From: Candidatus Altimarinota bacterium
GTDB lineage: Bacteria > Patescibacteriota > Gracilibacteria > UBA4473
NCBI GenBank assembly: GCA_021736215.1
Contig: JAIPGI010000009.1
Coordinates: forward strand, 1-45,842
Length of the DNA: 45,842 nucleotides
Direction of reading: 5' to 3'
Shown here: positions 3,397 to 44,784 of the stretch, in pieces
How positions within the stretch are numbered: position 1 is the stretch's first letter
Layout of the letters: the number at the start of each line of letters is the position of its first letter
The notes under the pieces: generated by a model
The model's database searches: none
The model's input: the letters and a program-made list of their open reading frames with translations, nothing else
Told to the model about the DNA's origin: nothing
Program-made: the position numbers and the translations under genes

Positions 3397-5970
3397 TCAA
3401 TATACTTTTTCTACTTTTACTCCATCAAAAAAGTAATCGATGATTTCATTGTAATTTTTCCCTTGCTTTGCAAGTTCTCGAGCAGAGTTTCCAGAAAGAC
3501 CAACTCCGTGTCCACGCTGTTCTAATCCTTCGTCAAAAGGTAACGCTCGAACTTTAGCCCAGGGGTAGGCCTTTTGCCATTTATCGGAACTTTGTCCAGA
3601 ACTCTGTGTAAAATACGGTCCAATTACTGGTTGTCCAGTATAGGTAAGAACTCGTCCTTCTGTCGCTTGAATAAGTTCTTTTTGTTTTACATGATATTGT
3701 TCCCAATCGTATCCCAAATAAAATTGAGAGCTTGCGGGATCGTCCTCTAAATCATAGAGCTGGGTATTGAATTTTCGCTTCGCGCCGGAATACACATAGG
3801 CATAGCTTCGCGCCAGTATATGAATAGATTCTTTCTTTGCATCGGGTTCAGTATCGGGCTCTTCGGCCAACCCCCACAAATATTCTTCAATCGGCAGTTC
3901 GTTCACAATTAATAAGCTATTTCCGCTTTCGGGATAGACACTTAACTGTCGTCGGAAACGATTGTAAGGAAGTTTCCCCAATTTACGGTCGTAATTCTTA
4001 ATCTGCAACACTCCGTCAGTTTCTATTTGGAGAGAACCAACAATCCAACTTTTATCTCCACTGGAGACACGTAGAAATTTCTTTTTTTGTTGGAGATCTG
4101 CATCAGGAATAATCTTGATTATGGTCGAAGCATCAATGAGTGCCAATTTATTATCATTCTCCCTCAAAAGAACTTTTTGATTCCCCTCGATGGTTGCATA
4201 TTTTCCATCAAAAAAAGCAAGTTTTACTTTTATGTTTCTTTGTTTCGTGCTCTCGGGAGCAGAAGATTTAAACATAGTTGCGGAAAGTTTTTTGAGAAAT
4301 TCTGGTTTTGCATCTTCTTCCTTTGCCGAAGGCAGAGGATTGGAGGAGGCTTGCATAATTCTATCGCCAGAAACCTGTATCAACAGTTCAAAATAGGGAA
4401 ATTCTTGATCTCGAAAAATTTTATCTTTGATAAATTCAGGATAGAGATGAATTTTGTAAACCCCATTGGGGGCATTATTTACAACAACACGTCCACGAAA
4501 AGTTCCTTTGTGTCCCGGTTTGATAGTTTCTATTGCGCGGAAGGGGGTAACGGTCATTCCTTCTGGAATATTTTGGGGAATGAATTGAGAAGTCTGCCCA
4601 AGCCAAACATCAAAAGATCCATTAGAAAATTCCAAATCAATAGTTATCCGATCATTTCGTTGCACGATGTTTTTTTTCATCAGCTGTGTGGAACTGACAA
4701 GAGGTTCCTTTTCGGGACGTTCAAATCGGTCAGGTTCTTTGGAGAACTGTGGAGCAACGTCACTTTTTTGTAAAAAATCACGGGCCATGAGACTTTCCGA
4801 TTTCTCTTGTCTATAGAGCACATCCATAAGGTAGGATACTTCTTTTCGGATTTCAGGAAGAAGTGATTCCAAATTTTTTCCAGGACACGATGTGCCATGT
4901 CCACGTCGGGCAACATCTTTGTGTCCAGAAATATTCCATGAGTTGGTGCCTAAGTAAAAGTCTCGACTATTTGGATTTACATCAAACCGACGGGCGTGAT
5001 CTGCCAAGAGGAGTTTAAGCACTTCAATCTGCCGATCAGTTGGAACCTCGTATTCGAAATTTCCCATCAGAGAAATCCCGATTGTTCCAATATTGTGATA
5101 AGCGGTGTGAGCGCCAACAGCGCGTGGACCACCAGCACGTCCTTCATATATATTCCCCTGTTTATCAATGACATAGTTATATCCGATATCACCCCATCCG
5201 CGCGTTAGTGTGTGAAAAGCATAAATTGCACGCATAATTTCCATTGGGTCGCGTCCGTTTTCAACGTACTCACCGGTATGATGAATAACAAATTTTCGGA
5301 TGATAGGACTTTCCGCAATGGGCCAACGAAGAGGATTCCCATCCTTATCTTGAGTAGCAATAACTTTGGGGCGGTATTGTGGGTCTACGAGATCTTCTTC
5401 AGTTTTAAACCATGTTTGAAAAAATCTCTGTTTGGATGGATTCCATGCTCGCAAACTTTCATCAGCATCCCATCCAGCACGGGAAATATATTCAGGTCGT
5501 TTTACCTGACGAGGAAGTCCCGTTTCTGGATCATCAAGAGTATCATCATCGAGTGGAGAAAAATCATTTTCTTTTTCTCTTACAGCGGTATCGGAATCTA
5601 ATTCCGCTACTAATCTTTCTCCAGGAATATGCGTGTTATAAAAATGTGCGACAACATCAACTGGCTCTTCGGATTTAATTTGGAGAGTATGTGTCCCGTC
5701 CTGAGCGAGAAGTAACTCCAAAAGACTCGGATTTTCGGTTTCAGTCTCATCTTCTGCTACGGGCCAAGGACGGAAATCTCCTTCAGTATTTCGATACCAT
5801 ACCTTGGGAAGAGGGGATCCGTCTTTGGTAAAAAGAGTAATTGCATTCCATTCCATATCCGAGGACAACTCAAATGTCCCTTGTGGAATATGTGTTTCAC
5901 TTTCATAAAAGGTCATTCCCCGGCTAGAACTAAGGAGTGCGGCAATACCGAGAACGAGACCTTCGAACAT
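3397..5970 (-). CDS. Secreted N-acetylmuramoyl-L-alanine amidase fused to a SpoIID-type domain
   Basis: An 857-residue cell-wall protein. The N-terminus is weakly signal-like. Residues about 160-380 form an Amidase_2/PGRP domain that would cut the bond between MurNAc and L-Ala of peptidoglycan; zinc ligands are visible as His in VIHHT (230/231), His350 in SGHKDV and Cys362 in TSCPG, and YNYVIDKQGNIYEGR is typical of the fold. A middle region (about 440-660) looks like beta-rich linker domains. The C-terminus (about 670-857) is SpoIID/LytB-like (LPIEEYLWGL, ARSYA, FTQSSGQSSDKWQ, RGHGVGLSG), a family that includes the SpoIID transglycosylase acting on denuded glycan. Both steps may therefore be in one chain. 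It has its own promoter at 6002-6030. Confidence 0.92.
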   Translation of the reverse strand: MFEGLVLGIAALLSSSRGMTFYESETHIPQGTFELSSDMEWNAITLFTKDGSPLPKVWYRNTEGDFRPWPVAEDETETENPSLLELLLAQDGTHTLQIKSEEPVDVVAHFYNTHIPGERLVAELDSDTAVREKENDFSPLDDDTLDDPETGLPRQVKRPEYISRAGWDADESLRAWNPSKQRFFQTWFKTEEDLVDPQYRPKVIATQDKDGNPLRWPIAESPIIRKFVIHHTGEYVENGRDPMEIMRAIYAFHTLTRGWGDIGYNYVIDKQGNIYEGRAGGPRAVGAHTAYHNIGTIGISLMGNFEYEVPTDRQIEVLKLLLADHARRFDVNPNSRDFYLGTNSWNISGHKDVARRGHGTSCPGKNLESLLPEIRKEVSYLMDVLYRQEKSESLMARDFLQKSDVAPQFSKEPDRFERPEKEPLVSSTQLMKKNIVQRNDRITIDLEFSNGSFDVWLGQTSQFIPQNIPEGMTVTPFRAIETIKPGHKGTFRGRVVVNNAPNGVYKIHLYPEFIKDKIFRDQEFPYFELLIQVSGDRIMQASSNPLPSAKEEDAKPEFLKKLSATMFKSSAPESTKQRNIKVKLAFFDGKYATIEGNQKVLLRENDNKLALIDASTIIKIIPDADLQQKKKFLRVSSGDKSWIVGSLQIETDGVLQIKNYDRKLGKLPYNRFRRQLSVYPESGNSLLIVNELPIEEYLWGLAEEPDTEPDAKKESIHILARSYAYVYSGAKRKFNTQLYDLEDDPASSQFYLGYDWEQYHVKQKELIQATEGRVLTYTGQPVIGPYFTQSSGQSSDKWQKAYPWAKVRALPFDEGLEQRGHGVGLSGNSARELAKQGKNYNEIIDYFFDGVKVEKVY

Positions 5971-8091: not shown

Positions 8092-8111
8092 AGTTTCATT
8101 GTTAAATTATT

Positions 8112-8148
8112 CAATCCCGGGTTCTAGGGTTTTTTGAACCCGGGATTG
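8112..8148. repeat. Palindromic element, 13-bp stem with 11-nt loop
   Basis: CAATCCCGGGTTC (8112-8124), 11-nt loop, GAACCCGGGATTG (8136-8148). Same architecture and core as two copies inside rsmA (44268-44300, 44451-44489). It lies between the S41 promoter and the sugar-transferase gene; with no T-run on either side it is not an obvious terminator. Confidence 0.8.
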
Positions 8149-8262
8149 GAAAATAGTAATCTATCGGTAAAAAAGTAATGAAGAAATGAAGTATCGAAGC
8201 ACCGAAGACAAAAAAGAAAAAAAACTTTAGTTTCTCTTATCTTTTTGCTTCAATACGGGATT

Positions 8263-18691: not shown

Positions 18692-18818
18692 AAATCTCCC
18701 TCTCTTCGAGTCCGAGCGAAGCTCGCCTCAGAGTCGAGGATCAACTCCCTCTTTGGCAAAGAGGGAGGGGGTTCTTTACCCCCTTTGGAAAAGGGGGAAT
18801 GAAAAGGGGGATTTTGCT
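18692..18818 (+). repeat. Repeat copy A supplying the start of the LamG gene
   Basis: Starts AAATCTCCCTCTCTTCGAGT and contains a hairpin CTCCCTCTTT-GGC-AAAGAGGGAG (18745-18767) and then CCCCTTT...AAGGGGGAATGAAAAGGGGG. A second copy lies at 22662-22784; the first ~75 nt differ at only a few positions. The ATG near the 3' end (18799) is the probable LamG start. Both copies follow tracts of AATGAACAAT type. Confidence 0.85.
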
Positions 18819-21800: not shown

Positions 21801-22623
21801 TACTGATTGGTGGACATCGCACCTAATAGAAGGAACAAATGTAATTCGTATGGGTCTTTCTTGGTATTATCTTGACGGGAAAATGTCGGATGTGCGTATT
21901 TATAATCGTCCTCTTTCTGGTTCAGAAATAGCAGGGCTCTATCGGAGTTCTAAACCCGCCACAATTAATTCCTCCCAAAACGATAAAGTAACGTCTGGAC
22001 TCGTAGGATTGTGGTCATTTAATGGTCCAGATGTGAATGGAACAGTTGCCTATGATCAATCGGGGAACGGAAATAACGGGACCATTACTGGAGCAGTACC
22101 TGCTATTGGGAAGGTAGGGCAAGGAATGAGTTTTGATGGAAATGATGTTGTTAGTTGCGGTACGGATGTGACATATGCTTTTGGTAGTGGTGATCATTCA
22201 TTTGCTGCGTGGGTAAATCCAAGTGCCTTAGAAACGAGCTCGGTCTATAATTATATTGTGGCAGTAGGAAATGGTTCTGCAGGTCAACAATCTGGGTTTG
22301 GAGTGAAGAATACAGCTAGTGGAGGGAATTTTTTCCATTCAGCTTATTCATCACCATTAATTACTTTTAGTGATACTATCCCTTTGGACGAGTGGTCTCA
22401 TGTGGCACTTGTGCACCAATCGGGGACTAGTAAGCTGTATATAAATGGAGTATGGAAAGAAGATAAAGCTATCACTATGAATGTTCAAACGGGAAAGTGT
22501 TATATTGGTACGCATACTGGAGGATCTTCTTATTTTGATGAAGGAGTTTTGGATGAGGTTCGTATCTATAATCGAGCATTATCGGCAACAGAAATCACAC
22601 AGCTTTATAATTTGGGACGATAA
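18799..22623 (+). CDS. Secreted multi-LamG (concanavalin A-like) surface protein
   Basis: About 1274 residues from ATG 18799, which opens a good signal peptide (MKRGILLLSSLFIFSSSAQA); the frame is open 52 codons farther upstream but that part is translated repeat. Five LamG/LamGL domains are visible, each starting GLVGHWxLx or VGHWxLN, with DxSGNGNHG and FDGxDDYV and ending YNRALSxxEIxxLY. The fourth is split: after GLVGNWKLS about 150 residues resembling a CBM4/9 jelly-roll (NVNWDMETG to FLIDDFTFKV) are inserted before DASGNGNNG. LamG domains bind sugars or proteins, so this is probably an adhesin or glycan-binding protein. No cell-wall anchor is seen. No function beyond binding can be claimed. 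Confidence 0.9.
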   Translation: MKRGILLLSSLFIFSSSAQAATIMRPPNHLGLVGHWELTSGSLKNGKAQDTASSINDGTISGTVDMRNHGYKFDGVDDYIKIGDKSELESMGVLSVSAWIKTTTTATNKGIVAKWYTGTVSYSLRTSVNSPGKIDFHTQTSATTTSTSTSSINDGSWHHLVGIYDGTTQKLYIDGIEEDSDSQTGTIKDSEEEFCIGTFCNGTTTDGFFDGNIADVRVYNYALSTAEILDLNNNKNAGISVGHWPLNRNTQDVSGNGNHGTPLPDNKGPYYTTGPQSQANGAMVFDGSDDYVQTTNPLFSGNDNFTFSGWVKLGNLTNVHRFFSQGNESANSHFWVGADATTGYFQWGFWANDKTTTTALSADTWYHIVVVKDGATSYGYVNGTQIDSLASGTLTIGNNAAYLGAISASHPHRLAGNLADVRIYNSALTSTDITNLYNGQSVGTPVGHWLLNGNIQDSSSNANHGIVNAMKFYDGPLSIGDSAYFNGASSISINSNSSAKPTGSQTFSFWYNTDTHFPVNWMQIFGGVSFSGSANVGHAFGITRQDLGGAIVSDLHNAATTGEKRSMGWIGYPGEGWHFVTSIYDRSAPRHIVYIDGVKVIDKYPGNATNWDSGYLDVSWGSTPLRIGSNSAGTGWFYSGYLRDFKIYNRTLSQAEILRMYTASETTGSASTVKPPSRTGLVGNWKLSQSGQEGGAELNVNWDMETGVTSTWSWDPKANGIRSEYTVDKYRGSKSAKLTNATDSSIAFWQQRTGVTVGTYFRVGVWAKNVDCPTTPYWGNTGATLVSSNTGSASFTGISTTEWKYYTALFKATASTVDIHVRTANNATQGSFLIDDFTFKVVQEGDASGNGNNGIIYNGVVYATGPHGESGGAMDFDGTDDAVSITNIPASEIVSSTGTYSYWLKLDTTNSHHGPFHWYDSGGVGTADYIRNYISAANNQIDLIIEDEDVVKVSLAYDLDNLGSYVGQWHHFVWRQDGGADGDGIDLFIDGQEKTLSGTNSTDWWTSHLIEGTNVIRMGLSWYYLDGKMSDVRIYNRPLSGSEIAGLYRSSKPATINSSQNDKVTSGLVGLWSFNGPDVNGTVAYDQSGNGNNGTITGAVPAIGKVGQGMSFDGNDVVSCGTDVTYAFGSGDHSFAAWVNPSALETSSVYNYIVAVGNGSAGQQSGFGVKNTASGGNFFHSAYSSPLITFSDTIPLDEWSHVALVHQSGTSKLYINGVWKEDKAITMNVQTGKCYIGTHTGGSSYFDEGVLDEVRIYNRALSATEITQLYNLGR

Positions 22624-22661
22624 ACACAATGAGCAATTAAGAATGAAGAATGAACAATTAG

Positions 22662-22784
22662 AAATCTCCCTCTCTTCGAGTCCGAGCGAAGCTCGCCTCA
22701 GAGTTGAGGACCAACTCCCTCTTTTCCAAAGAGGGAGAGTTTCCCCCTTTGGGAAAGGGGGAATGAAAAGGGGGATTTTTCTTC
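22662..22784 (+). repeat. Repeat copy B supplying the start of the TSP3-type gene
   Basis: Second copy of the element at 18692-18818, with hairpin CTCCCTCTTT-TCC-AAAGAGGGAG (22715-22737) and the segment GGGGGAATGAAAAGGGGGAT, whose ATG (22763) starts the next gene. It begins 38 nt after the LamG stop, after an AATGAAGAATGAACAATT tract. Confidence 0.85.
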
Positions 22785-23470
22785 TCGTAATGATAATGAT
22801 ATCTGGGAATGCTTTTGCTCAGAGCACCATGCTCACTCCTGTGCAATTCGAAAACCAGCTTTCAACATTCTTTTGCCAGCCATATAAACTTTCAAAAGAA
22901 ACGACAGAGCTTCGAAAATCTGATGTGGTTCAGGAAGTTGTAAAAATTCTTGAAACAAAAAATATTTCGTTTCCGGCTGACTGGAAAACGATTCTTTTTA
23001 CTGATTTAGAAGGGGATGAACCGTATTTTCAGTCGGCACAAATTTTGGCATCGTTGAGAGTTATCCCCTTCGAGGAATTTGGAAATCAAGATGCTGTAAA
23101 CCCACTTGTGACGAAATCTCAGGCACAAGAAGTATTGAACAATATTTTTGATCAATCGAAATGCGATTTTGCATTAAACTTGGATTGGGATAGAGACGGA
23201 ATTTATAACTATAATGACCGTTGTCCTCGTGTTCCTGCACGAAATACAGAGAATGGTTGTCCATTGTTTTCTTTTCGCCCGTACTCCAAGATTCAGAAAC
23301 CTCGAATCGTCATTAAGTCCAGACTTAATGATGCCAGAAGTCCGGACTTAGGGTATTATTTTTATGAACAGACACAAATAAAAAAGGGGGATAAAATTCG
23401 CGCAGTTATTTTGAATCCCAAGACCAAAGAAGTGCTGTCGGGGAGCGAATGGATGGAAGTAAAAAATTGA
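22763..23470 (+). CDS. Secreted protein with thrombospondin type 3-like Ca-binding repeat
   Basis: From ATG 22763 a signal peptide (MKRGIFLLVMIMISGNAFA) leads a 235-residue protein; longer forms upstream are translated repeat DNA. Residues about 40-135 are helical and SLH-like. Residues 141-166 (DWDRDGIYNYNDRCPRVPAR and NTENGCP) match a thrombospondin type 3 calcium-binding repeat with two Cys. Residues 184-196 are encoded by a palindromic element (23314-23350), after which the chain continues to a short beta-rich tail. Likely a calcium-stabilised surface or matrix protein; exact role unknown. It lies 139 nt after the LamG gene and is probably functionally grouped with it. Confidence 0.8.
   Translation: MKRGIFLLVMIMISGNAFAQSTMLTPVQFENQLSTFFCQPYKLSKETTELRKSDVVQEVVKILETKNISFPADWKTILFTDLEGDEPYFQSAQILASLRVIPFEEFGNQDAVNPLVTKSQAQEVLNNIFDQSKCDFALNLDWDRDGIYNYNDRCPRVPARNTENGCPLFSFRPYSKIQKPRIVIKSRLNDARSPDLGYYFYEQTQIKKGDKIRAVILNPKTKEVLSGSEWMEVKN
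23314..23350. repeat. In-frame palindromic element inside the TSP3-type gene
   Basis: TAAGTCCAGACTT (23314-23326), 11-nt loop, AAGTCCGGACTTA (23338-23350); 12 of 13 positions pair. The layout (13 + 11 + 13, arms self-palindromic) equals that of the CCCGGG elements at 8112 and in rsmA, but the core is AGTCCGGACT. Confidence 0.7.
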
Positions 23471-23628: not shown

Positions 23629-24507
23629 ATGAAATTTACTGGTCGAGTTGTCCATGGAGCAAATGTTGGGGAGCATTTTGGCGTTGCGACTGCTAACCTC
23701 GAATTGGATCAAGAAATATCTCTTGATGAGGGCGTTTATTTTGTTAGAACCCGGGTTCTGCAGAACCCGGGTTCAGAGTATAATGCACTTCTTCACTATG
23801 GTCATCGCAAGACTTTTGGCGGGGAATTTTCGATAGAAGTGCATATCTTGGATTTTAAACAAGATTTGTACAATCAAAAATTAGAAGTAGAAGTATTACA
23901 TCGAGAGCGAGATGTCCGGAAATTCGACAATGCAGATGCCTTATTTACTCAAATTGAGCAAGATAAAGTTCGTGCGCAGAAGTTTTTTCTTCGTCGAAAA
24001 ATAGCACAGCACTGGAGAGATATTTCAGATGAAGAGAGAAGAAAACTTGATGAGCAGGCAGTAGAGCTTTTGGAGCAAAACGAGTTTTTCCTTAAAGCAA
24101 CAAGGGTATTTGCCTTTGCTCCAATGAGAGATGAATTGCACTTTGTACAAAAAATGTGTTCAATATTCCCAGACAAAGATTATTTTTGGCCAAAAGTTGA
24201 GCACGATAAAATTCACTTTTTTCTCGATACATTTGAGAATCTAAAGCTTGGCGCTTTTAATATTAGAGAGCCAAAAGTAGCTTTTGAAGCAATTCCTAGA
24301 ACGCAAGATGTTGTTATCGTTCCTGCATTGGCGGCGGATGAATGGGGATATCGGCTCGGACGAGGAAAAGGCTACTATGATCGATTTCTCGCAACGACGA
24401 AATCCCACAGTATTACACTGCTTCCATATTTTGCCATATCTCCCAAAAAAATTCCGACAGAACCTCACGATCAGATGATTGATGAGGTTTTGGTAATAAA
24501 AAAGTAG
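23629..24507 (+). CDS. Fusion: riboflavin kinase + 5-formyltetrahydrofolate cyclo-ligase
   Basis: A 292-residue protein made of two enzymes. Residues about 1-110 match riboflavin kinase: GRVVHGANVGEHFGVATANL (compare GFPTANL), GVYFVRTRV, YGHRKTFGG and VEVHILDF...LYNQKLEVEVLHRERDVRKF; this domain makes FMN from riboflavin and ATP. Residues about 120-292 match 5-formyl-THF cyclo-ligase (MTHFS): FLRRKIAQHWRDISDEERRK, FAFAPMRDELHF, DVVIVPALAADEWGYRLGRG and KGYYDRFL; this domain turns 5-formyl-THF into 5,10-methenyl-THF. Riboflavin kinase is normally fused to FAD synthetase, which is absent here. A palindrome (23747-23774) encodes residues 40-49 in a loop of the kinase domain. The Pro of GFPTAN is Ala. 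Confidence 0.88.
   Translation: MKFTGRVVHGANVGEHFGVATANLELDQEISLDEGVYFVRTRVLQNPGSEYNALLHYGHRKTFGGEFSIEVHILDFKQDLYNQKLEVEVLHRERDVRKFDNADALFTQIEQDKVRAQKFFLRRKIAQHWRDISDEERRKLDEQAVELLEQNEFFLKATRVFAFAPMRDELHFVQKMCSIFPDKDYFWPKVEHDKIHFFLDTFENLKLGAFNIREPKVAFEAIPRTQDVVIVPALAADEWGYRLGRGKGYYDRFLATTKSHSITLLPYFAISPKKIPTEPHDQMIDEVLVIKK
23747..23774. repeat. Perfect 28-bp palindrome inside the riboflavin kinase domain
   Basis: GAACCCGGGTTC, TGCA, GAACCCGGGTTC. Two copies of a 12-bp palindrome around TGCA make the whole 28 bp self-complementary. It shares the CCCGGG core and TTC/GAA edges with the element at 8112-8148, and is read in frame through residues 40-49. Confidence 0.85.
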
Positions 24508-27722: not shown

Positions 27723-28027
27723 TTATTCCCATATATCGCATAGTTCAGAAAAATGAAGCGATGTGTACTTCCAAGTTTCAGGCAATTCATGTTTGAGATA
27801 ATTGTATGTAGTGTAATTCCAATGATGCTGTAAATCTCGTTCATCGCGAATGGCGTGGTCGTGAAAGGATGATTGCCATTGAAAACGAGGAAAATAACTT
27901 TGATTATATCCATGTTTTTTCACAAAATCATTTCGCCATATTTGAAGGCGAGAATCCATATTCTCCCCGATGAACAGATATTCAGGTTGTATGTAGCGAC
28001 ATTTACGAAATGATGGTACCTCTTTCT

Positions 28028-28055
28028 GAAGGCGGGATTGGCCAATCCCGCCTTC
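28028..28055. repeat. Perfect 28-bp palindrome inside the RAYT relic
   Basis: GAAGGCGGGATTGG followed directly by its complement. It carries the GGGATTGG/CCAATCCC edge seen in the rsmA elements and encodes about ten residues (EGGIGQSRL) without changing frame. Confidence 0.85.
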
Positions 28056-28292
28056 GTTTGAATACCTCATTATAAAATTTGCATTTCGAGCAAAATGTCT
28101 TTTCAAGAATTGCATTATTTGAGAAATATTTGCTTCTTTGCTCGGCTTCAACAATAAATGAAAGTGATTTGGCAATAAACAAAATGCATATAATTCAAAC
28201 TGTTTTAACTGCTTGCATAGCCGCAATTCTTCCATCCATGGAGTAATATTTTTTGAGATTTATTTGTGTAACAAATAAGTCCAAAAAACGAC

Positions 28293-38342: not shown

Positions 38343-38745
38343 TATCAACTCCACACTAGTTCCGAAAAAAGAACAACAATGATTAATGAGTAATTAATAA
38401 TGAGTAATGTGGAAAAGTATTCTTCCTCTCCCTTGGGGAGAGGAGTGAGGAAAGGGATTTTTGCTCCTTGCAAGGAAAAAGTTCAAACTCAAAGTATCCC
38501 CGAGTTCGAACTTAAAAAAAATTCCCTTGTAGGAGCGGGTGTTCCGTAGGACACATGGGTTCATGACATTTTCTCCAGAGAAATGTCACCGAACCAGTGG
38601 GATACTCCACACTAGTTCCGACAAAGTTTACAAAACACGAGAAATTGAAGTTTTTTGCACAAGTGAATAAAAATCCTCCTTCTTTTCGCGATGAGAAATT
38701 TCCTCCCCCTTTGCCAAAGGGGGAAGGTAAGGGGAATTTTGTTTC
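38343..38745. other. 403-bp intergenic region with direct repeats and hairpins
   Basis: No gene is visible. It holds an 18-bp direct repeat ACTCCACACTAGTTCCGA at 38348-38365 and 38604-38621. Other features are an AATAATGAGTAAT tract (38378-38410) and hairpins CCTCTCCC-TTG-GGGAGAGG (38425-38443) and CCCCCTTT-GCC-AAAGGGGG (38705-38723). A larger nested hairpin lies at 38558-38595 (GGTTC/GAACC outside, GACATTTTCTC/GAGAAATGTC inside with one bulge). Confidence 0.65.
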
Positions 38746-40863: not shown

Positions 40864-42324
40864 TTAAAATACCAAATTTCTATCGAGTTTATTTTTGAGT
40901 CGTTTTCCCTGATTTTGTACTTTCCCATGTCCGAGACAAAAATTTTGAAAGTGGACAAGTACTTCACATCCATCACGGAAATCTGCCTCCAACTCCCTCT
41001 TTTCCAAAGAGGGAGAGAATACAATGTCATATCCTTCCATCCAGCGATCTTTTTGTTCATTCGTGAGTTCAAGTACGTTTGTTGTTGCGAAGTGTCCAAA
41101 ATGAATCGCAAAACTAGATGTCATATTTCCATGTTTATCGGCGACTGGAAGACCACATCGACGATGAGGGTGTTTACTAGCGAATGTTCCCGCTTCTGGA
41201 GAAATGAGAAATATCTCTCCATTTTTTTCAATCAAAGATGAATCTTCAAAAATATCTCTATTCAGTCCAAATGTTTTTTGCCATCGAACGAGAATTTCTG
41301 CCGTTTGATTTTTTCTGAGCACAACGGGAGCATTCTTAATTGGCGGGATCATAACCCTGGTTCGATCAAGCGGCTTTGTCTTGGTTATTTTGGCTAAGAA
41401 AAAACATTCAGAATTCCATTTCTTATTTCGTAAATGAGGCCAGATACGTCTGGTATGTTTTGCTATTCTTGAACAAAATTTTTGTTCAAAAAACCGATCT
41501 AATCCCTCTCGCATGGGAATCTCTGAGAAATCTATAGGAAGTAGATCTGCTTCTGGATAAGTATCGAGGAGATGTTGCACGACAGCTTCGTTTTCTTCGG
41601 GTGCTGTTGTACAAGTAGAGTAAATGAGGGTTCCTCCAACTTGTAGCATCTCAAAAGCACTCAAAATAAGTTTTTTTTGAAGTTTTGCAGCTTCAAATAT
41701 ATTTTTCTCCGCCCACATCTTTTGGAAAAAAGAAGAGTCTTTGCGACCGTAACCTTCACTACTACAGGGAGCATCAAGGAGTATCTTGTCAAACTCTTGA
41801 TTAAAAAAATGATAAAGACTTGTGCCGTCATTTTGCATCATTATGGTATTTATAATGCCCATTCGTTCGAGATTTGATGCGAGTTTCGCTGACCGAGAAG
41901 AGCTTGGTTCATTGGCGACGATGACACCAGTATTTTTCATTTTTTGGGCAATGAAGGTCGTTTTGGACCCTGGGGCGGCAGCAACATCGAGAATGATTTC
42001 GTGTGTTTGTGGATTGAGAGCGAGAACGGGAAGCATCGAACTGAGCGACTGTACATAGATTTCTCCCGAAAAGTGTTCCAGAGTTTTCCCGAGCGGGAGC
42101 TCGTGTTGATCGTCTCGTTCTATGAAAAATGCTTCTGGAATGGCAGTAGGGGAGAGATGCCAAGAGGGGGGGCACTTCAACTGCCAATTGTCAATTGCCA
42201 ATTGCGAAAGGCGGATTGTTTTGGGCAGAGGTTCTGTGGCGGACTGAAAAAAATCATCCCACTCATTTTCGGGGAGCAGGGCTTGTATTCGTTCGATAAA
42301 TCGAGAAGGGAATTTGTCTTTCAT
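40864..42324 (-). CDS. RsmB/RsmF-type rRNA (cytosine-5-) methyltransferase
   Basis: A 486-residue SAM-dependent m5C methyltransferase of the NOL1/NOP2/Sun family. The SAM site is ILDVAAAPGSKTTFIAQ; the catalytic Cys motifs are LLDAPCSSEG (PC) and IYSTCTTAPEENE (TC). A PUA-like C-terminal region suggests the RsmF type. Two repeats are read through in frame: CAATTG-type tract at 42178-42206 (residues LAIDNWQL) and the hairpin CTCCCTCTTT-TCC-AAAGAGGGAG at 40993-41015 (SLEKRE). The start overlaps the preceding gene by ATGA. Confidence 0.93.
   Translation of the reverse strand: MKDKFPSRFIERIQALLPENEWDDFFQSATEPLPKTIRLSQLAIDNWQLKCPPSWHLSPTAIPEAFFIERDDQHELPLGKTLEHFSGEIYVQSLSSMLPVLALNPQTHEIILDVAAAPGSKTTFIAQKMKNTGVIVANEPSSSRSAKLASNLERMGIINTIMMQNDGTSLYHFFNQEFDKILLDAPCSSEGYGRKDSSFFQKMWAEKNIFEAAKLQKKLILSAFEMLQVGGTLIYSTCTTAPEENEAVVQHLLDTYPEADLLPIDFSEIPMREGLDRFFEQKFCSRIAKHTRRIWPHLRNKKWNSECFFLAKITKTKPLDRTRVMIPPIKNAPVVLRKNQTAEILVRWQKTFGLNRDIFEDSSLIEKNGEIFLISPEAGTFASKHPHRRCGLPVADKHGNMTSSFAIHFGHFATTNVLELTNEQKDRWMEGYDIVFSPSLEKRELEADFRDGCEVLVHFQNFCLGHGKVQNQGKRLKNKLDRNLVF
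40993..41015. repeat. In-frame hairpin repeat in the methyltransferase gene
   Basis: CTCCCTCTTT-TCC-AAAGAGGGAG, the same hairpin that forms the centre of the repeats at 18692 and 22662. Confidence 0.85.
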
Positions 42325-43922
42325 TTTCTAATGAATCGGTCAGTATGTTCTAATGGGAAGTGAAAAAGTTTTGAAATATCCACATACTTTTCCAGTTCTC
42401 GAGTTTCGAGGGTATTGATAGCCTCAGTCGTGGTATTTTTATGAATTGCTTCCATTATTTGATCTTCGATGTTATCAAGAGGATGTTCGGATGCGTATAA
42501 CTGTAAAACACCTTTCACTCCCTGCACTTTAACGTACGAGAAAACAGATTTTAGAGTGTTATAGAGAATTTTCGTAAATTCAGGTTGATCACTTCGTACA
42601 GACCATAGAGCAAAGATTCCATCTTCCTGAAGTTTTTCCTTCATAATTTGTATATATTCTTGCGTGAAAAGTGGGGAAGATTGAATGATGCCTGGTTCTT
42701 CAACGTCGATAATGATAGCGTCAAATATTTGATCTGTTTGTCGGATAAAATGAGTACCATCCTGATTGAGAAGCGTTACTTTGGGAGAATGAGTAACGTC
42801 TCCATTAAATTCAGCAAAAAATTTTTCTGCTGCCTCAATTACCATAGGATTAACTTCTACAACAGTCAGTGTTTTTACAAAAGGATCTTTTTCGACAGCA
42901 TGAGCAGTAAAACCACACCCCAATCCGATATTGAGAATGTCCCCATTTCCAAGAGAAGGAATATTTTTGACAGTAGTTTCTCCTATATCGAATTCAGCTG
43001 TTGTTAGGAGCGTATTGCACATATCTCGATAATTAATAAAAAGTCCTCGATTTCCTTCCATCCCCCACGCATTATCTCCTACAGTTACAGCGCCAAAAGG
43101 AGATGATTTAGAAAAAATAACGTTTCCGAACCTTCGCTTATCGATTTTATGTCCACCGAGTTCAGGGGCATAAATACTCCCACTCTTTATGGAAACATTG
43201 GGAGCATTAATATGTGGCTGGTCTTTTGAAATAAGTGAATTTTGGGAATAGTTATAATAAGAAAAAAAAAGGAATACCCCTGCTATCAAAATCAGAGCAA
43301 CACGCCAGATGTTTTTTTTCAGAAAAAAGAAAATAACGAGCATATTTGCAAGAACTGGGATGAGGAGAGAATTAGCGAGTCCCATGAATGGAATTAGGAT
43401 AAATCCGGAAATCAGAGCCCCCAGCACCGCTCCCATGGTATCCACGAAATAGACAAAACCAGTATCTTGGGTGCGAGAAGTAAAGTTTTTTTGATACAAT
43501 CCATTAAGGATTGGAAAAGCTCCTCCCAAACAAAATGCAGGTATAAAAAGATAAATCCCAACGAATAAGAATTTTAAAATATTGAGAACATATGCGTTCT
43601 CATTCCAGTTACTTATAGAATCTATAAACAATGGAATAATTTCATGATGTTGAAGGACCCCTATTGCGTAGAGAACAATAAAAATCTGCATCCCCACAAG
43701 TACCTGAATGGAGCGTGATTCTTTGGATTTTACGAAGTGCGCGAATACAAGGCTTGAAAGAGCCAACCCCAAGAGGAAGGCCGATAGCGTGATAGCAGCA
43801 GCATGAGTATTTTCTGCGAAGTACAAAAAAACAACCTTGAGGCTATACATCTCATAAACAAGCGACGTAAATCCAATGAGTGCCGCAGACAGAAGAATGA
43901 CTTTTTTTGTTTTATTTGGCAT
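42321..43922 (-). CDS. Membrane protein with spermidine synthase-like domain
   Basis: A 533-residue protein from ATG 43922 (overlapping rsmA by 11 nt; an upstream start at 44003 is less likely). N-terminal about 230 residues hold seven or more helices (IGFTSLVYEMYSLKVVFLYF, FLLGLALSSLVFAHF, YFVDTMGAVLGALISGF). The C-terminus is a SpeE-like Rossmann methyltransferase-type domain: ILNIGLGCGFTAHAVEK, VEVNPMVIEAAEKFF and IIIDVEEPG. Such membrane-fused SpeE proteins are widespread; polyamine synthesis is not proven. Middle gene of the rsmA operon. Confidence 0.88.
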   Translation of the reverse strand: MPNKTKKVILLSAALIGFTSLVYEMYSLKVVFLYFAENTHAAAITLSAFLLGLALSSLVFAHFVKSKESRSIQVLVGMQIFIVLYAIGVLQHHEIIPLFIDSISNWNENAYVLNILKFLFVGIYLFIPAFCLGGAFPILNGLYQKNFTSRTQDTGFVYFVDTMGAVLGALISGFILIPFMGLANSLLIPVLANMLVIFFFLKKNIWRVALILIAGVFLFFSYYNYSQNSLISKDQPHINAPNVSIKSGSIYAPELGGHKIDKRRFGNVIFSKSSPFGAVTVGDNAWGMEGNRGLFINYRDMCNTLLTTAEFDIGETTVKNIPSLGNGDILNIGLGCGFTAHAVEKDPFVKTLTVVEVNPMVIEAAEKFFAEFNGDVTHSPKVTLLNQDGTHFIRQTDQIFDAIIIDVEEPGIIQSSPLFTQEYIQIMKEKLQEDGIFALWSVRSDQPEFTKILYNTLKSVFSYVKVQGVKGVLQLYASEHPLDNIEDQIMEAIHKNTTTEAINTLETRELEKYVDISKLFHFPLEHTDRFIRK

Positions 43923-44784
43923 GTGCTTGAAAATTGTGAGTGACCTGTTTCCACTCGTCAATAGTAAGTGTTTCGGGGCGTCTATTTCCATCAATAGATC
44001 CAAGGAGAAGTGTCGAATCTGTCCCGAAAAATTTCCCCAAACTATTGCTCAGTTTTTTTCGTTTTTCACTAAATCCAGCGTTTACTACCGTGAAGAAATC
44101 TTTCAGAAGATCTTCGGGGACAAGTGGTTCGGGGCGAATATCGAGTCGGATAACGGCGGAATCTACTTTGGGAGAAGGGGAGAAGCAAATGCGAGGAACT
44201 TGGAAGAGAATTTTGCATTCTGAGAATACCTCCACGGCGATAGACAAAATTGATCTTTTGAATTTCAATCCCGGGATCTGGGGATCTTTGATCCCGGGAT
44301 CTAGGCTGGGAGGAGAAATTTTTTGAGCGACCTCTTTTTGGACCATAAGAATTGCAAATTGGGGTTTATGTTTCGTCTTTTCAAGAATTTTTCGCAAGAT
44401 TGGGGCAGTAATGTTATAGGGGATATTGGCGACTATTGCGTAAGGAAATTCCAATCCCGGGATCTGGGCATCTTTGATCCCGGGATTGGAAAATCTAAGA
44501 GAATCCAAATCCTGATCGAGAATATCTCCTTGAACGAGATGGAAATTTTCCTTGTGTCCGAAGTCTCTTTTTAAGATCTCAACAGCCCTCGGATCAAACT
44601 CTACAGCAGTAAGATTTGCTTTTTTTTCGAGTATTTTGCTCGTGAGAAATCCGAGCCCGGGACCGATTTCGAGGATATTTTTTCCAGTGATATTCCCTGC
44701 TGATGCAATAATTCGATCACGAATTTCCGTGGATTGTAGGAAATTTTGTCCGAGAGATTTTTTGGCAAAACGTTTTTTCATCAT
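43912..44784 (-). CDS. rsmA: 16S rRNA dimethyladenosine transferase RsmA (KsgA) with in-frame palindrome inserts
   Basis: Dimethylates two adjacent adenosines in helix 45 of 16S rRNA. Motifs: FAKKSLGQNFL, SAM site ILEIGPGLGFLTSKIL, and the catalytic VANIPYNITAPIL (NIPY at 120-123). Two insertions with almost the same residues are visible, SNPGIKDAQIPGLE (about 99-112) and SLDPGIKDPQIPGL (about 160-173). They are encoded by palindromic elements at 44451-44489 and 44268-44300, in loops before NIPY and after VQKEVAQKI. The frame is intact and all catalytic parts remain. A GGAAGGAA Shine-Dalgarno and TACAGT (44799-44804) precede the ATG. First gene of the operon. Confidence 0.94.
   Translation of the reverse strand: MMKKRFAKKSLGQNFLQSTEIRDRIIASAGNITGKNILEIGPGLGFLTSKILEKKANLTAVEFDPRAVEILKRDFGHKENFHLVQGDILDQDLDSLRFSNPGIKDAQIPGLEFPYAIVANIPYNITAPILRKILEKTKHKPQFAILMVQKEVAQKISPPSLDPGIKDPQIPGLKFKRSILSIAVEVFSECKILFQVPRICFSPSPKVDSAVIRLDIRPEPLVPEDLLKDFFTVVNAGFSEKRKKLSNSLGKFFGTDSTLLLGSIDGNRRPETLTIDEWKQVTHNFQAHAK
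44268..44300. repeat. Palindromic element in rsmA, copy 2
   Basis: ATCCCGGGATC (44268-44278), 11-nt loop, GATCCCGGGAT (44290-44300). Encodes DPGIKDPQI-type residues. Confidence 0.9.
44451..44489. repeat. Palindromic element in rsmA, copy 1 (39 bp, 13 codons)
   Basis: CCAATCCCGGGATC (44451-44464), 11-nt loop, GATCCCGGGATTGG (44476-44489): a perfect 14-bp stem. The total of 39 bp is a whole number of codons. Confidence 0.92.

Follow-up and report, generated by a model that had tools for sequence, protein, structure and literature searches.

The rsmA (ksgA) gene of a Candidatus Altimarinota bacterium contains two short palindromes in frame, which quite probably represent copies of a non-autonomous, REP-like palindrome of the mobile kind whose mobiliser, judging from sequence comparisons, would be the product of a RAYT gene located on another contig (C13) of the same genome. 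The window, i.e. the whole stretch of 45,842 nucleotides that was analysed, belongs to a genome of 1.01 Mb distributed over 17 contigs (hereafter G000). The palindromes constitute a dispersed family with a well-delimited unit, are inserted in frame within genes, are absent from most relatives and are associated with a RAYT gene, while their arms differ from species to species at sites that several species share.

Palindromes within rsmA and the family to which they belong

The rsmA ORF (43912..44784, minus strand, 290 codons) was identified from its translation and a single match to NCBIfam TIGR00755 (ksgA, E 1.1e-59), which extends over residues 7-283 and covers both inserts. As had been predicted, it bears two palindromes in frame and is open through both of them. 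Insert 1 (44453..44487, minus strand) is a CCCGGG palindrome of 35 bp encoding NPGIKDAQIPGL, whose arm pairing reaches about 16 bp per arm at this copy, and insert 2 (44267..44301, minus strand, 35 bp) encodes DPGIKDPQIPGL. They were placed relative to known RsmA structures by sequence alignment, the pLDDT of a single-sequence model being only 32.6. The alignment of RsmA from G000 with that of 23 relatives revealed both inserts in G000 and neither in nearly all the others, as expected of mobile insertions. The exceptions are G001, a sister species of the same genus (assembly about 80% complete), with unrelated inserts at both loops, that of loop 2 belonging to a different palindrome family, and G011, with one insert at loop 2. 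The original prediction had named residues shared by relatives at these loops as evidence against mobility; G001 does have inserts at both, but their sequence differs. The G011 insert (L097; GEGQPFGVPLRGVAVATQ) is an unrelated segment of about 30 residues in the loop that is occupied in G000 and G001.

Genome-wide, 56 CCCGGG-N10..18-CCCGGG pairs were found in G000 and none with the reversed control pattern, about 0.2 being expected by chance from the 157 single CCCGGG sites. A stricter pattern retrieved 33 copies in G000 and 0 in 59 relatives, including the same-genus G001. Unit statistics were derived from 54 of the 56 copies. The arms pair in 51-54 of the 54 copies at positions 1-12, and in 23 of 54 at position -1 (shuffle mean 24.1); the pairing thus stops sharply at the first base outside the arms, which delimits a unit of 34-36 bp, the loop measuring 10, 11 or 12 nt. 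Each unit is composed of two mutually complementary arms of 12 nt, each with a 6-nt dyad (CCCGGG), on either side of a 10-12 nt loop that is often of the AAAG-N-CCCA type, and each arm alone is near a dyad, with 0-2 mismatched pairs of 6. Covarying arm pairs occur at positions 1, 3, 10 and 12 (p<=0.002 against shuffles), the stem variants AAT/ATT, GAT/ATC, AAA/TTT, GAA/TTC and CAT/ATG changing jointly. Among the copies the arms are uniform and the loops variable, which is not what plain copying of a single master would lead one to expect. The oriented flanks display a weak TTC/GAA signal only, and no GTAG or CGTC tag at the ends. The unit had previously been proposed to be 39 bp, a multiple of three, with a loop of 11 nt. 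The corresponding 39-mer pattern matches perfectly at 44451-44489 (0 in shuffles) and also matches an intergenic copy at 8111-8149, but with 3 mismatches there; 11 nt is among the loops found, in equal numbers with 10 and 12, and the length of 39 bp does not hold. The core of 22 of the 26 genic copies is 34 or 35 bp, hence not itself a multiple of three.

The copies are divided between ORFs, which hold 26 of the 54, all in frame, and intergenic positions (28/54), in agreement with the prediction of a dispersed family that enters genes. Among the genic hosts, the RAYT gene contains three copies, and RsmA, UvrD/PcrA, RibD, LigA and an S-layer (SLH) protein two each, while riboflavin kinase, MiaB, MurL, Dxr, an M24 peptidase, an M23 peptidase, a nucleotidyltransferase, ExoIII, TruB, a PurQ-like protein, IleRS, ValRS and CarA have a single one. 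The rsmA, RAYT, MurL, nucleotidyltransferase and CarA genes escaped the automatic gene picker and were called manually, on the basis of their open frames and of family matches. Protein-family matches were found on either side of the inserts in the host ORFs, and the inserts use all three reading frames. Most copies within genes measure 34 or 35 bp, as against 35 or 36 bp for most of the intergenic ones, and AAT/ATT ends are present in 5 of the 26 genic copies versus 17 of the 28 that are intergenic (Fisher p 0.0025). These differences could reflect an older age of the genic copies or a selection of shorter units by the reading frame.

Within the window, the intergenic element predicted at 8112-8148 is a true copy of 35 bp (8113..8147). 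A further copy, absent from the original prediction, is a short form (GAACCCGGGTTC-TGCA-GAACCCGGGTTC; 23747..23774, plus strand) that encodes RTRVLQNPGS in frame within a riboflavin kinase / 5-formyltetrahydrofolate cyclo-ligase ORF (23629..24507, plus strand; Pfam PF01687 and PF01812, and NCBIfam); the orthologous site in G001 has AAGACCGGTCTT arms. The element predicted at 23314-23350 turned out to be in frame and of the same architecture, but with different arms: it consists of AAGTCCAGACTT-AATGATGCCAG-AAGTCCGGACTT (23315..23349, plus strand) and encodes KSRLNDARSPDL in an ORF of 329 aa (22481..23470, plus strand). Its loop AATGATGCCAG is close to the AAAGATGCCCA of the first rsmA copy, which indicates a shared architecture with another arm type.

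Two other explanations account less well for these data. Perfect stems and compensatory pairs would also be expected of immobile hairpins kept as RNA structures, such as mRNA processing sites or terminators, a reading that we consider very improbable: a T-run lies near only 1 of the 28 intergenic copies against a background of 21%, so that these copies are not intrinsic terminators, the loops are found in both orientations with respect to the gene (15 vs 8), the sites are empty in most relatives and the MiaB hairpin is eroded in G001. It is still harder to regard the family as DNA uptake sequences in inverted pairs, in spite of the short repeated motif and of the location of some copies between convergent genes. 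Uptake sequences are mostly single and occur in large numbers, whereas about 110 of the 157 CCCGGG sites of G000 fall within the 56 pairs; in-frame hairpins within a transposase gene would moreover be unexpected.

A candidate transposase and its species-specific arms

Five Y1 proteins are encoded in G000, one of which is a plain IS200-type TnpA (contig C3). The other four genes each have their own in-frame palindrome, namely GTAGGGACAATCCTAGGATTGTCCCTAC (C3), GTAGGGACGTTGCATGCAACGTCCCTAC (C7), GAAGGCGGGATTGGCCAATCCCGCCTTC (window 27723-28235) and the CCCGGG array (C13), and the palindrome copy comes after the HUH strand in the C3, C7 and C13 genes. The gene of the window is a second RAYT-like gene on the minus strand, with GAAGGCGGGATTGGCCAATCCCGCCTTC in frame at 28028-28055. 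A sibling of the GAAGGCGGGATTGGCCAATCCCGCCTTC palindrome was observed in frame in tsaD (L075:17315-17344), and two further RAYT genes contain in-frame palindromes of the GTAG type (L075:4653-4680 and 5105-5132; L076:3363-3390 and 3713-3740), one copy of which is likewise inserted without a frameshift in an Elp3-like radical SAM gene (L075:3041-4870).

The C13 gene is the Y1 gene of G000 that adjoins CCCGGG palindromes, with three in-frame copies inside and more on its flanks. Its product keeps the PNHFH motif and the YxxxN tyrosine, both invariant in an alignment of 11 sequences, and matches Pfam Y1_Tnp with 31.5 bits (cut-off 23). The sole NCBIfam match is NF047646 REP_Tyr_transpos (E 8.9e-15), with a score of 54.8 bits that is under the curated cut-off of 80 bits. 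The proximity and the shared arms make this RAYT a probable mover of the palindromes. As an HUH/Y1 tyrosine transposase, it would act on the hairpin in single-stranded form; insertions that preserve the reading frame within tolerant loops would survive as about 11-13 extra residues, presumably neutral, and the remaining ones would persist in intergenic positions. The arms and the RAYT diverge in step, so that the arm sequences are specific to each species, and in related species coding loops are repeatedly occupied at shared positions.

RAYTs closely related to that of C13 were identified in G001, G003, G011, G015, G016, G017 and G019, and matching loci also in named Gracilibacteria records. 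The two-dyad architecture is found beside the RAYT in 8/8 genomes read with a close RAYT relative, with an arm sequence that depends on the species: the core at the RAYT gene is CCCGGG in G003, G011 and G016, ACCGGT in G017, and TTCGAA or TTCGTA in G001, G015 and G019. G001, G017 and G019 share with G000 the in-frame copy behind the HUH strand of the RAYT, and no two-dyad palindrome was found at the second, more diverged RAYT copy of G019 (L224). Moreover, palindromes inside other genes carry the arms of the resident RAYT in G000, G001 and G011, for example in the IleRS of the latter. No such RAYT was found in G012, and inserts are missing there at all sites read; in G009 and G010, both assembled in many contigs, two-dyad palindromes are present within genes and a matching RAYT was not detected. 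A scan for two-dyad elements of any core in a 240-kb sample of each genome retrieved 7 in G001 and 9 in G011. TTCGAA-core two-dyad palindromes were also observed in G000 (L064:4210-4238 and L069:1329), one of them inside an ORF named RecF-like by inspection; these copies suggest older waves of other arm types.

Orthologous sites in related genomes

For 17 genic sites of G000 an orthologue was read in G001, and 13 of these are occupied there. Eleven of the occupied sites have the two-dyad architecture, in 10 cases with arms unlike those of G000. Hairpins of the GGATTCG type, resembling the arms in the RAYT gene of G001, are found at eight sites: RsmA1 and the nucleotidyltransferase (both imperfect), UvrD1, RibD1, RibD2, M23 and the two SLH sites. 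Two sites (riboflavin kinase and M24) have the AAGACCGGTCTT arms, two others (RsmA2 and TruB) contain an unrelated palindrome of the CCCTCTTT/CCCCCTTT type, and MiaB has an eroded, clearly orthologous CCCGGG insert (QSPGSGCAEPGLD vs QIPGSGCLDPGID). This eroded copy argues that the ancestor shared by G000 and G001 would already have possessed CCCGGG arms, and that the hairpin is probably not retained for its own sake. At UvrD2, Dxr and ExoIII the site is empty in G001; the MurL comparison was counted neither as empty nor as occupied. The G001 protein (80% identical) lacks the second UvrD insert, as do those of every other relative read and the sequence of the PcrA structure. The net insert relative to orthologues is about 33 bp for UvrD2 and Dxr and about 27-30 bp for ExoIII, thus not always 36 bp, a variation implying that insertion may be imprecise or that the loops have changed since.

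An overlap of 13 sites out of 17 is not attainable by random insertion and calls either for a strong re-targeting of the same sites or for an in-place rewriting of ancestral inserts. The former, in which permissive or hairpin-prone loops would be hit independently in each lineage by its own element, has in our estimation about an even chance of being right; it is the counterpart of rewriting and is compatible with a REP-like palindrome mobilised by the C13 RAYT. TruB and the second loop of RsmA are occupied by unrelated families in the two species (CCCGGG in G000 vs CCCTCTTT/CCCCCTTT in G001), G011 too has an unrelated insert at this RsmA loop, and the palindromes at UvrD site 1 differ among G000, G001, G009 and G002. 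Conversely, no target motif shared among the sites was found beyond the weak TTC/GAA flank, and so many shared sites would demand a very strong targeting.

The alternative, that inserts of the G000/G001 ancestor have been overwritten in place by gene conversion or hairpin replacement to match the arms of the resident RAYT, appears possible and somewhat doubtful. It would account for the number of G000 sites occupied in G001, eight of them with arms like those of the G001 RAYT, for the left boundary common to UvrD1 in both species and the right boundary common to RibD2, and for the MiaB insert, by which at least one site is ancestral; the change from AAACCCGGGTTC to GGATTCGAATCC also needs transitions only. 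On the other hand, no mechanism is established for the in-place rewriting of a 35-bp element, the loops at orthologous sites are without clear conservation, and RibD site 1 is occupied in G010 (GAGTTCGAACTC) but empty in G012 and G004, whose UvrD gives a better alignment with that of G000. This last distribution favours re-targeting by repeated insertion, for that site at least. The more specific version, in which a shift of the arm preference of the resident RAYT would cause gene-embedded inserts at orthologous codons to be overwritten with the new arms, is marginally more doubtful again. If rewriting were true, peptide segments of housekeeping proteins would switch together, as from LNPGSRVKEPGF (G000) to QDSNPRNLGFES (G001) in RibD.

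Relation to known palindromic elements and other genomic features

The CCCGGG family resembles the REP/RAYT REPtrons (PMC3733652) by its 20-40 bp stem-loops in tens of copies, some of them genic, and by the Y1 transposase flanked by the repeats. The kind of element is already known, from Rickettsia palindromic elements and from REPs described within genes as early as 2013 (PMC3733652): GTAG and CGTC REPs were found inside genes including those of UvrD, TruB, DNA ligase and tRNA synthetases, all of them hosts of the present family too, two palindromic elements of Rickettsia conorii (RPE-4 and RPE-6) were equated with such repeats, and one case of differing REPs at about one site was given for recB of two Xanthomonas (PMC3733652). 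Unlike GTAG/CGTC REPs, which are mostly extragenic, the present family lacks an end tag, has arms that are each near a dyad, is genic in 26 of 54 copies and occurs in frame inside its transposase gene, in a Patescibacteria-like host. The proposal of an undescribed selfish palindrome family was right as to dispersal and presence in genes, but had overlooked the RAYT; the link with the RAYT places the system among REP/RAYT elements rather than among orphan selfish palindromes.

The likeness to Rickettsia palindromic elements (RPEs) that had been pointed out is borne out by in-frame inserts mostly missing from relatives, by residues added to unrelated housekeeping proteins and by the presence of several families per genome. 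RPEs are however about 150 bp and encode a longer peptide (PMC10969869), whereas the CCCGGG unit is 34-36 bp, uses all three frames and has a linked transposase; by this description of RPEs, size and linked transposase set the family apart, and it is not an RPE. TIRtrons/TIRYT (PMC3733652) likewise combine a tyrosine transposase with GTAG-less flanking inverted repeats, some self-complementary, that are repeated in the genome, but these are long terminal repeats and not short two-dyad units also present in frame in genes. The HUH/Y1 transposase and terminal hairpins recall IS200/IS605; the 34-36 bp unit nevertheless holds no gene, and for the C13 protein the match is to the REP-associated model, not to that of IS200. 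What is new here are the tagless ends, the two-dyad arms, the high genic share and the many shared sites with species-matched arms.

No description of such in-frame palindromes in Patescibacteria was found among the papers searched, nor, judging by titles and abstracts, in work on Gracilibacteria or on RAYTs of the candidate phyla radiation. The family represents, in a Patescibacteria-like genome, a counterpart to the coding palindromes of Rickettsia with a candidate transposase at hand, making gene entry directly testable, and the species-by-species match of arms between RAYT gene and housekeeping genes lets the co-evolution of transposase and target be followed as a natural experiment. The family also points to a route by which several proteins of a reduced genome gain new surface segments in parallel.

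Other features of these genomes were observed. A separate palindrome family of the CCC[CT]CTTT...AAAG[AG]GGG type has six copies in the window, including 18745-18798, 22713-22762, 38704-38725 and 40993-41015. It is also present in frame at RibD site 3 (L126, L127), common to G000 and G001, where a further palindrome (CCCTTCGGCTTCGCTCAGGGCAG) is nested in one copy in G001. Finally, the IleRS and ValRS of G000 display an unusual architecture, with an extra histidine-phosphatase domain (PF00300) within the synthetase, and the IleRS of G011 seems, by eye, to carry this domain too (loci for these observations: L233:3-2699 and L234:1327-3999, minus strand; L240:17755-19998, plus strand).
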